From Pseudomonas synxantha (GTDB taxonomy: Bacteria > Pseudomonadota > Gammaproteobacteria > Pseudomonadales > Pseudomonadaceae): 64,000 nt of DNA. The position numbers were made by a program, and so were the translations under genes. The stretch is from positions 3,782,001-3,846,000 of the forward strand of contig NZ_LT629786.1 of assembly GCF_900105675.1 (NCBI RefSeq). The letters are read 5' to 3'. How positions within the stretch are numbered: position 1 is the first letter of the stretch; every line of letters starts with the position of its first letter. Under the pieces are notes generated by a model. The model ran no database searches. It saw only the letters and a program-made list of their open reading frames with translations, and was not told the DNA's origin. Below, piece by piece: positions 37,357 to 58,657 of this stretch.

Positions 37357-37388
37357 AGATCGTCCTTGTCTGTACTGGCCTCATCGCA

Positions 37389-37849
37389 GCATAGGTATCT
37401 ACACAACTTTGCAGTCGCCAACAGTAACTACGATGCGAAGCGAGCCGCTCTTGATCTTGCTCTTGATCTGCTTTTGATCTCAGGCGCCCCGTTAAACCAC
37501 GCTGGCCGGAATTCGACAGGGATTTGGGGGGTAAACCGGCAGGGATGCCGGTTTAGCCGCCCCGCGCCATGGATGGCGCGTGGCGGCGGCCTCCCAAATC
37601 CATGGCGGATTACGGGCACACCGAGCCTGAGCGAGGTGCCGAGTGGTGGGGCAAGAGCCTTTTGGTTACTTTTGGGCTCTTTTCAAAAGTGACCCGCTGT
37701 AAAAGCGGAACCAATAGCCGCCGTTACCGCAGCAATGGATATGTACCCGGCCTGATCCAACATCCTGGTCGGCTGTCAGGCCGCCATCGGGGGCAAGCCC
37801 CCTCCCACAGTGTCCGACGGCGTACCAGAGGTTGTGTAGATACCCATGC
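37389..37849 (-). mobile_element. MITE-like element copy A (461 bp), inserted into a REP
   Basis: Bounded by imperfect terminal inverted repeats: left GCATAGGTATCTACACAAC (37389-37407), right its counterpart at 37831-37849. The flanking octamer TCATCGCA (37381-37388 and 37850-37857) is an exact 8/8 direct repeat, and the right copy runs straight into the REP arm GGCAAGCCAGCTCCCACA. The internal sequence is collinear with, and inverted relative to, copy B (57285-57632), including an internal REP (about 37780-37810) and a conserved hairpin GGTTACTTTTGGG..AAAAGTGACC. Copy A has ~100 extra bases rich in small palindromes (about 37490-37590). No transposase gene, so it would move in trans. Confidence 0.72.
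37532..37579. repeat. Nested hairpins unique to element copy A
   Basis: TAAACCGGC-(6)-GCCGGTTTA (37532-37555) and GCGCCAT-GG-ATGGCGC (37564-37579), both perfect stems, lie in the segment absent from copy B. Confidence 0.7.
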
Positions 37850-37850
37850 T

Positions 37851-37920
37851 CATCGCAGGCAAGCCAGCTCCCACATTTGGAATGCATTCCCCTGTGGGAG
37901 CCGGGCTTGCCCGCGATGAC
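37851..37920. repeat. REP pair downstream of element copy A
   Basis: CATCGCAGGCAAGCCAGCTC..ACA (to 37875) and TGTGGGAGCCGGGCTTGCCC..GATGAC (from 37893), about 18 bases apart, arms pointing apart. The left one is the REP that hosts copy A. Confidence 0.75.
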
Positions 37921-56547: not shown

Positions 56548-56581
56548 TTGGTTTAAACCCTTAACCCTGTTGGAGAACGTC

Positions 56582-57196
56582 ATGAGCAAGATCGCAATCA
56601 TTGGGGCCACCGGCCGTGCCGGCAGCCAACTGCTGGAAGAAGCGCTGCGCCGTGGGCATAGCGTCACCGCCATCGCCCGCAACACCGACAAGCTGGGTGT
56701 ACGCCCAGGCGTCACGGTCAAGCAGGTCGATGCCCTGGACGCCGACGCCCTGCAACACGCCATCAGCGGCAGCGACGTGGTGATCAGCGCCGCACACTTT
56801 GCCACCTTGCCCGCCAGCGCCGTGATCGGCCCGGTGAAAAAGGCCGGGGTCAAGCGCTTGCTGGTGGTGGGCGGTGCGGGTTCGCTGCTGCTACCGGACG
56901 GCAGCCGGGTGATCGACAGCCCGGGCTTCCCGGCAGAGTACAAGGCCGAAGCCAGTGCCGGGGCTGAATTCCTGGAAACGTTGCGTCAGGAAAAAGAGTT
57001 GGATTGGACGTTCCTGTCGCCTTCTGCTCTGTTCGATGGAACCGAGCGCACCGGTAAGTTCCGTCTGGGCCAGGATGATCTGCTGGTGAGCAGTGACGGT
57101 AACAGCTCGATCAGCTTTGCCGACTACGCCATCGCCATGATTGATGAGGTTGAAACACCTAGACACTCGCGTCAGCGCTTCACCGTTGGCTACTGA
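56582..57196 (+). CDS. NAD(P)-binding (NmrA-like / atypical SDR) oxidoreductase
   Basis: 204 residues; GATGRAGSQLLEEALRRGH is the NAD(P) motif, then VISAAHFATLPASAVIG and LLVVGGAGSLLLPDG. Resembles NAD(P)H-binding atypical SDR family proteins; catalytic substrate unknown. Adjacent to the MBL gene with 34 bases between, so co-transcribed. Confidence 0.82.
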   Translation: MSKIAIIGATGRAGSQLLEEALRRGHSVTAIARNTDKLGVRPGVTVKQVDALDADALQHAISGSDVVISAAHFATLPASAVIGPVKKAGVKRLLVVGGAGSLLLPDGSRVIDSPGFPAEYKAEASAGAEFLETLRQEKELDWTFLSPSALFDGTERTGKFRLGQDDLLVSSDGNSSISFADYAIAMIDEVETPRHSRQRFTVGY

Positions 57197-57213
57197 CACC
57201 ACGCGGTAAAAAA

Positions 57214-57658
57214 TGTGGGAGGGGGCTTGCCCCCGATAGCAGTGGATCAGGCAGATTATTTGTGACTGACACACCGCTATCGGGGCATGGGTATCTACAC
57301 AACTTCTGGTACGCCGCCGGCCCCTGTGGGAGGGGGCTTGCCCCCGATGGCGGCCTCACAGCCGACCAGGATGTTCGGTTGGATCGAGTACATATCCATT
57401 GTTTAGGTGACGACCGCTATTGGTTCCGCCCTTATGGCGGGTCACTTTCGAAAAGCGCGAAAGTAACCAGCGCTCTTGCCCCACCACTCGGCACCTCGCC
57501 CAGGCTCGGTGTGCCCGTAATCCGACAGGGATTTGGGGGGCCTGAGACCAAAAGCAGAGCAAGATCAAGAGCGGCTCGCTTCGCATCGTGGTTACTGACG
57601 GTCGCATGTCAGAGTTGTGTAGATACCCATGCCCATCGGGGGCAAGCCCCCTCCCACA
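57214..57658. repeat. REPIN interrupted by element copy B
   Basis: Left arm TGTGGGAGGGGGCTTGCCCC with CGATAGC at 57214-57240; right arm GCTATCGGG (to 57284) then resumes at 57633 as CCATCGGGGGCAAGCC..CCCACA (to 57658). Deleting the insert and one 8-base copy gives a perfect REPIN. Confidence 0.8.
57285..57632 (+). mobile_element. MITE-like element copy B (348 bp), inserted into a REPIN arm
   Basis: Perfect terminal inverted repeats of ~20 bases (GCATGGGTATCTACAC at left, its complement at the right end). Flanked by CTATCGGG (57277-57284) and CCATCGGG (57633-57640), 7/8 matching, at the same place in the REP as copy A, immediately before GGCAAGCC. Contains the same internal parts as copy A in the opposite orientation but without the ~100-bp hairpin segment. 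No transposase ORF. Confidence 0.72.
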
Positions 57659-57667
57659 TTTGAATCT

Positions 57668-58546
57668 TCAGTGCTGTGACTGCTGTGCCTGGCTCACTAG
57701 CCAGTCCATCAGGGCCAACAACCCGGCAGAAGGCACTTTCCCCGGCGGATACACCAAGTAATAGCCCATCCCCGTCGGCACCCGCAACTCAAACGGCATC
57801 GCCAGGCGTCCGGCCTTCAAGTCCTCGCCAATCAACGCACGATCACCGATCGCCACGCCATTTCCCTGTGACGCCACCGTCATCGCCAAGTCCAGGGTTT
57901 CGAAATGAGGCCCCTGGTTCAGGTGACTCAAGTGCGTACCCGCCGCCTTCAACCACAACGCCCAATCCCGCTCGTCCCGCGTGGGATGCAACAGCACTTG
58001 TTGCTGCAGATCAGCCGGCGTGTGCAAGCCTGCCAGCAACGCCGGCGCGCACACCGGGGTCAGTTGTTCGTCGAACAAATGCCGTGCCTCGGCGGCCTGC
58101 TCGGCGATGGGTGCGTAGATCACCGCCGCGTCGAATCGTTCGCGGCGAAAGTCCACGGTAAAGGCCACGGTGGTGGTGAGTTCCACCGGCACATCCGGGC
58201 GCTCCTTCTGCCATTGCAACACGCGCGGCAGCAGCCAGCGTATGACGCAGGTGGGCGCCTTGAGTTGCAGGACCTCGCGGCGCCCGCCGATCTGCTCCAC
58301 CGCCTCGTTGATCAAGCCGAACACCTGCTGCGCCCGTAACGCCCACTCGCCGCCTTCCTCGGTCAAGCTCAAGCCCCGCGCCTGGCGCAGGAACAAGGCA
58401 TAGCCCAACTGGCGTTCCAACCCGGCGATCTGCCGGCTCACCGCCCCCTGGGTAATGTGCAGCTGCTCGGCGGCACGAGTGAAGTTGCAGCACTGGGCCG
58501 TGACCCAGAAAGTATGCAACGCGGGCAAGGGCGGAAGACGTTTCAT
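57668..58546 (-). CDS. LysR family regulator (GcvA-like)
   Basis: 292 residues. HTH: LPALHTFWVTAQCCNFTRAAEQLHITQGAVSRQIAGLERQLGYALFLR. GcvA-type effector domain (PTCVIRWLLPRVLQWQKERPDVPVELTTT). Divergent from the AruI-like decarboxylase, so probably its regulator. ATG 58546 (MKRLPPLPALH) chosen over 58573. Confidence 0.87.
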   Translation of the reverse strand: MKRLPPLPALHTFWVTAQCCNFTRAAEQLHITQGAVSRQIAGLERQLGYALFLRQARGLSLTEEGGEWALRAQQVFGLINEAVEQIGGRREVLQLKAPTCVIRWLLPRVLQWQKERPDVPVELTTTVAFTVDFRRERFDAAVIYAPIAEQAAEARHLFDEQLTPVCAPALLAGLHTPADLQQQVLLHPTRDERDWALWLKAAGTHLSHLNQGPHFETLDLAMTVASQGNGVAIGDRALIGEDLKAGRLAMPFELRVPTGMGYYLVYPPGKVPSAGLLALMDWLVSQAQQSQH

Positions 58547-58657
58547 CGGGGCGCAGCCATGACGTGAGGACATGGCGAGTATGACTTTTTATCGTTTGTT
58601 GCCGCTACCGGCCTGCCGCTCCAATAGCGTCTCGAATCCATCACAAGAGCGACCTCT

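Follow-up and report, generated by a model that had tools for sequence, protein, structure and literature searches.

The 64,000-nucleotide stretch of Pseudomonas synxantha DNA analyzed here (NZ_LT629786.1, positions 3,782,001 to 3,846,000; hereafter the window) carries a 346-bp element, termed copy B, inside one arm of a REPIN, a hairpin-forming doublet of repetitive extragenic palindromic (REP) sequences. Copy B is a real transposed element, and very probably an orphan miniature inverted-repeat transposable element (MITE) of the ISPpr4 type (IS4 family, Tn5-related) that inserts into REPs. The locus comprises the following features, in window coordinates:

57286–57631, plus strand: MITE copy B, 346 bp, with two open reading frames (ORFs) of at least 80 aa
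57286–57304, plus strand: left terminal inverted repeat, CATGGGTATCTACACAACT, a perfect complement of the right end
57613–57631, minus strand: right terminal inverted repeat
57325–57351, plus strand: REP inside copy B, with 26 of 27 bases (96%) the same as in the host REP at 57214–57240
57211–57240, plus strand: intact left REP arm of the host REPIN, of which 57211–57237 is 100% complementary to 57635–57661
57241–57275, no strand: REPIN loop and inner right arm as far as the target
57276–57285, no strand: left 10-bp target copy, GCTATCGGGG, its first nine bases as at the sites of the related genomes G285, G107 and G356
57632–57641, no strand: right 10-bp target copy, CCCATCGGGG, differing from the left copy at two of ten bases
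57642–57661, minus strand: rest of the split right REP arm
56570–57196, plus strand: neighbor gene of the NAD(P)H-binding family (PF13460), transcribed toward copy B
57668–58573, minus strand: neighbor gene for a LysR-type regulator (PF00126, PF03466), convergent

An earlier, sequence-only reading had placed a 348-bp block with near-perfect 20-bp inverted ends here, splitting the right arm of the REPIN. The position and the split arm were confirmed in the sequence, and the inverted ends proved even perfect, with 22 of 22 bases agreeing between the arms 57283–57304 and 57613–57634. However, the outermost G/C belongs to the target, leaving an element of 346 bp with perfect 19-bp ends that start with CAT. 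These ends are no chance pattern: the 16-mer end had six matches in the window (≤3 mismatches) against a mean of 0.28 in shuffled sequence, and 74 in the 6.84-Mb genome (≤2 mismatches) against one for the reversed pattern. Excision of copy B together with one target copy rebuilds GCTATCGGGGGCAAGCCCCC, the exact complement of the matching part of the left arm 57211–57240, as had been proposed, although the target copies measure 10 bp and not 8 bp.

Copy B is short and carries no transposase gene, as the sequence-only reading held. Its two ORFs of at least 80 aa (83 and 133 aa) matched no Pfam family, and an Rfam search near the element gave no match at E 0.1. Folded as a single DNA strand, copy B was more stable than 100 of 100 shuffled sequences (z −5.9), with the inverted ends pairing; we attach no functional claim to this stability.

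Sequence around element ends, fixed at CAT, was drawn from the genome of copy B and from other genomes. The resulting 118 end-pairs were reduced to 110 by removing same-flank duplicates and to 109 because one flank was too short; five re-fetched own-genome loci were excluded. Exact flank repeats of 10, 9 and 8 bp were present in 47, 13 and 4 pairs, respectively (64 in total), and 45 pairs had no exact repeat of 8–10 bp. When left flanks were paired with the right flanks of other copies in 200 shuffles, the maxima were 5 (10 bp), 2 (9 bp) and 1 (8 bp). In the 54 pairs whose inner eight target bases agreed, the next base also agreed in 50 cases on one side and in 51 on the other, yet it varied from pair to pair. 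Since this base agrees within pairs and varies between them, the outermost G/C of the supposed 20-bp end must be assigned to the target, which lengthens the duplication from 8 to 10 bp.

The same counts bear on the alternative that the block is a mosaic of REP-type repeats built by recombination and was never a transposed unit. This would be in keeping with the REP inside copy B and with the many family members that are chimeric or have a single end. The excess of exact duplications over the shuffled pairings, the empty site in a related genome and the closely matching ends that frame transposase genes in other genera (both described below) speak against it, and we regard a mosaic origin as extremely improbable. 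Transposition rather than repeat assembly, as first proposed, is thus borne out by the family duplications and the empty site.

Within its own genome, copy B gave at least 130 BLAST matches to all or part of its length, a lower bound as 40 of 657 candidates were scored; the best 41 were at least 184 bp long. Fifteen end-pairs of the family were found in this genome, and copies thus occupy several sites. One of them, copy A, also lies in the window:

37390–37848, minus strand: copy A, 459 bp, same family, with exact 10-bp target copies CTCATCGCAG at 37380–37389 and 37849–37858

The copies at 949349 and 6756273 were 96.7% identical to copy B over its first 184 bp and 98.8–100% identical over its last 81 and 72 bp; both lack the middle, which makes them shorter by 82 and 92 bp. 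Judged from this identity, the data suggest that the copy B lineage spread not very long ago. Because the element carries its own REP, each new copy adds a possible new target.

Related genomes were inspected at 29 of 30 loci (L316 left out), of which 16 had both neighbor genes. G285 holds an uninterrupted REPIN, which is the empty site that the sequence-only reading had predicted: when the two flanks of copy B are joined, 208 of their 215 bases align to it with 83.8% identity and two gaps. Altered empty forms were seen in G107 (outer arm changed), G356 (flank shortened) and G203 (diverged). Neither a mismatch between empty site and predicted REPIN nor a lack of genomes without the block was encountered. 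The REPIN position that copy B holds is occupied in G344 (L313), between the same two genes, by another element of 194 bp, whose ends match and whose 10-bp duplication is exact; this insertion is independent of that of copy B. At the other loci, G105, G177, G288, G125 and G073 kept just 30–63 bp with REPs partial or collapsed, G308, G192, G046 and G257 showed REP-type sequence in other arrangements when judged by eye, and G242 and G269 carried a longer insert whose core matched the family at 75%. The loci thus yield a single clean empty site and three altered ones, many others being uninformative.

The left target copy of copy B has the form found in G285, G107 and G356, and the right copy CCCATCGGGG is close to the duplication CCCATCGGGA of the copy at 949349. 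As an addition to transposition rather than an alternative to it, the right flank might have been replaced later from another copy or REP, whether through recombination or through gene conversion; two point mutations would suffice for the same outcome, and we find the replacement plausible but slightly doubtful.

In Pseudomonas, the family strongly prefers REPs. Most of the 47 exact 10-bp targets read CNSCGATNRS, and 44 of the 47 lie at one fixed offset from the TTGC of the REP hairpin, namely at the inner foot of GGCTTGCCNNCGAT; L102, L129 and L192 are the exceptions. A strict REP pattern was present at the insertion in 60 of 83 Pseudomonas pairs, compared with none of the 26 pairs outside the genus, where targets differ (e.g., CCTTCAAGG in Gallionella). 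Within the window, non-coding CNSCGATNRS sites numbered six in REPs and two elsewhere with ORFs of at least 150 aa counted as coding, and 4 vs. 1 or 6 vs. 4 at other ORF cut-offs.

The search for a matching transposase, also suggested by the sequence-only reading, led to other bacteria. On Acinetobacter, Aeromonas and Citrobacter plasmids, ISPpr4-like elements of the IS4 family have ends that differ from the family end at 1–3 of 19 positions, and their duplications are exact and 9 bp long. Three clean autonomous insertions with an exact 9-bp duplication were found, together with five more transposase genes framed by matching ends, none of them in Pseudomonas; autonomous elements with the same ends thus exist outside this genus. 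These insertion sequence (IS) copies are 1.34–1.46 kb long and encode a transposase. They resemble copy B in their closely matching terminal repeats and similar duplication length, and differ from it in size, in the transposase gene, in the 9-bp duplication (three clean cases) and in their non-REP targets.

The ISPpr4-like transposase is Tn5-like in its predicted fold. A transposase profile compared with solved structures matched Tn5, and also prefoldin at E 0.025, which we took as a chance match; a phmmer search of solved structures with one transposase gave no match. The Tn5 DNA-binding domain PF14706 scored below the cut-off on the transposase. Y307, R310, E314 and K321, assigned to a YREK motif by the residue spacing that we assume for it, were invariant in 50 aligned transposase rows. 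This motif and a duplication of about 10 bp are given for the IS4 family in the part of the review consulted (PMC2266710), and the partner elements show both, with 9 bp in the clean IS copies. In the same part of that source, Table 1 lists ends CW------Y---CA-A--W- and 8–9-bp repeats for the IS50 subgroup, the text has IS50 ends start with NT, and IS4Sa has CA------T ends and 8–10-bp repeats. The family end fits all named IS50 positions, and 9 bp is the repeat length of the IS copies, yet the end starts with CA and not NT; IS4Sa fits too. An origin from IS5, Tn3 or a REP-associated tyrosine transposase (RAYT) was rejected because the ends or the duplication length do not fit, a judgment based on general background and the cited papers rather than on a search.

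As a side observation, the NCBIfam model NF011312.0 (flagellar regulator FlhF) matched ISPpr4-like transposases (protein P0042) over model positions 413–767, and one transposase relative among the matches listed (120 of 246) is labeled FlhF by its source. The model was perhaps built on a fused or mislabeled protein.

No such transposase was found in the host. A profile search detected none in the genome of copy B or in 34 other end-bearing Pseudomonas genomes, while the control genomes matched in 5 of 5 cases. A single-protein query at E 1e-10 detected no ISPpr4-like transposase in any of the 398 Pseudomonas genomes sampled; among 321 genomes of the class, the same query matched four. The exact end was present in 35 of the 398. 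A PF14706 search of 35 genomes also detected none; among 14 control genomes, E. coli alone matched. Nevertheless, ISPpr4-like transposases are named in P. bharatica (433 aa), P. wuhanensis (331 aa), sp. ABY48 (320 aa) and sp. R5(2019) (371 aa), three of the four records being short, among the matches listed (120 of 3337). These four records indicate that the helper is rare in Pseudomonas but not impossible, and make visits of a helper plausible.

Because its ends match those of a Tn5-like family of other bacteria, copy B appears to depend for its movement on an enzyme that the searches of its genome did not detect. A transposase made elsewhere would bind both CAT(A/G)GGTATCTACACAA ends and excise the element, presumably by cut-and-paste chemistry as in Tn5. 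The REP hairpin would be cut at its inner foot (consensus CNSCGATNRS) with a stagger of 10 bp and the element joined to the cut target, which would leave the 10-bp duplication. An ISPpr4-like transposase probably acts on ends of the copy B type, and the helper may have come and gone, for instance on a plasmid.

Several observations weigh against this interpretation. Likeness between MITE and IS beyond the ends is slight, since the matches longer than 25 bp measure about 27 bp and all but one lie at an end, among the matches listed. The duplication is 9 bp in the three clean autonomous copies and 10 bp in Pseudomonas REPs, and that of copy B itself is imperfect: GCTATCGGGG and CCCATCGGGG agree at 8 of 10 bases, with the mismatch contained in the earlier description and one more. 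The strict REP pattern failed in 23 of 83 Pseudomonas pairs, several of which are decayed REPs by eye. REP preference may also be partly a matter of motif plus tolerance with no REP recognition required, since few non-coding motif sites in the window lie outside REPs (6 vs. 2). Finally, none of the 35 Pseudomonas genomes that bear the end was found to contain the helper, and no case of the two side by side was seen in the genus.

This last point, the exact end in 35 of 398 genomes with the ISPpr4-like transposase found in none, and the 10-bp rather than 9-bp duplications would agree with ends that are now worked by a different enzyme resident in Pseudomonas. No candidate turned up, although no search was aimed at one, and a few Pseudomonas records do name an ISPpr4-like transposase; we judge a resident enzyme to be quite improbable. 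A broader proposal, itself unlikely, is that a transposase-less family lands in REPINs across Pseudomonas without a resident helper, moved either by an unrecognized Pseudomonas enzyme with a 10-bp stagger or by rare visits of plasmid-borne ISPpr4-like elements, and spreads as a REPIN parasite that breaks the arms RAYTs need.

REPINs serve as a model for mobile DNA that a single host enzyme maintains. The copy B family is a second mobile one; it inserts into REPINs at a fixed base position, breaking an arm, and its partner, a DDE transposase, was not found in the host. The family could thus serve as a mark for REPIN breakage, as a possible source of single REPs and as a test case for the spread of orphan elements. 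Insertion of DNA into REPINs as a possible origin of single REPs is suggested in the part consulted of the work of Bertels and Rainey (2011, PMC3116915). In common with the REPINs and RAYTs of that work, the target of copy B is a REPIN, and copy B also contains a REP; unlike that system, copy B is bounded by ends of its own, and its partner is of the DDE type rather than a RAYT.

Other known systems share some of these features. In the text consulted of Tobes and Pareja (2006, PMC1525189), the REP-targeting elements ISPpu9, ISPpu10, ISPsy8, ISPa11, ISRm22 and ISRm19 likewise have a fixed insertion point in the REP, which is rebuilt upon removal, but they carry their own transposase, and their repeats, where stated, measure 2, 3 or 6 bp or are lacking, as opposed to no transposase and 10 bp in the copy B family. 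MITEPsy1 and MITEPsy2 of P. syringae are also short, transposase-less Pseudomonas elements with terminal repeats; the former has a 4-bp duplication and ISPsy2-like (IS5?) ends and the latter Tn3-family ends, and REP targeting is not mentioned in the text consulted (PMC3189936). The R200, R178 and R26 intergenic repeats of P. fluorescens (101–352 bp; Silby 2009, PMC2718517), from the same bacterial group, could be the copy B family, as compared by description; the table consulted gives no terminal repeats for them, and internal ones for R178. The end sequence, ISPpr4 and two longer core strings had no match in the literature searched (most subscription journals and supplements lie outside it), and a shorter core string occurred in four unrelated papers. 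A REP-targeting MITE was not described there either, including the parts consulted of PMC3733652, PMC3390384, PMC3686654 and PMC10969869. MITEs, IS4 elements and REP-targeting IS are each known; their combination here was not found described.

Beyond Pseudomonas, end-pairs with the same ends occurred in Gallionella and methanotroph (Methylobacter, Methylococcaceae) genomes, among the matches listed, and in the Psychrobacter-like G476 family ends border transposase pieces; the end sequence is therefore nearly fixed across distant hosts. Single exact ends in Planctomycetaceae, Schlesneria and Nitrosomonadales had no partner end within four mismatches, among the matches listed, and were left uncounted because they are unpaired and chance alone should yield about one exact match to a 20-mer in 257 billion bases. 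Copy B matched one plasmid and three phage records with a coverage of at most 41%. The viral contigs held one match to the end, and none in a search with protein P0039. The larger end-pairs L129 (752 bp) and L232 (818 bp) contained no ORF of transposase length; L102, L123 and L230 (about 750–900 bp) lay outside this ORF reading.

The Gallionella metagenome-assembled genome STB_49 carries elements of about 190–290 bp that have the family ends (L135, L175, L214). The short palindrome in which they lie is a different one, formed around CCTTCAAGG or a variant of it, and three of them have exact 9-bp duplications. Outside the window, at G000:C1 2967787–2968601 and beside a family copy, 12 REP matches at 70–72-bp spacing resemble a tandem array.
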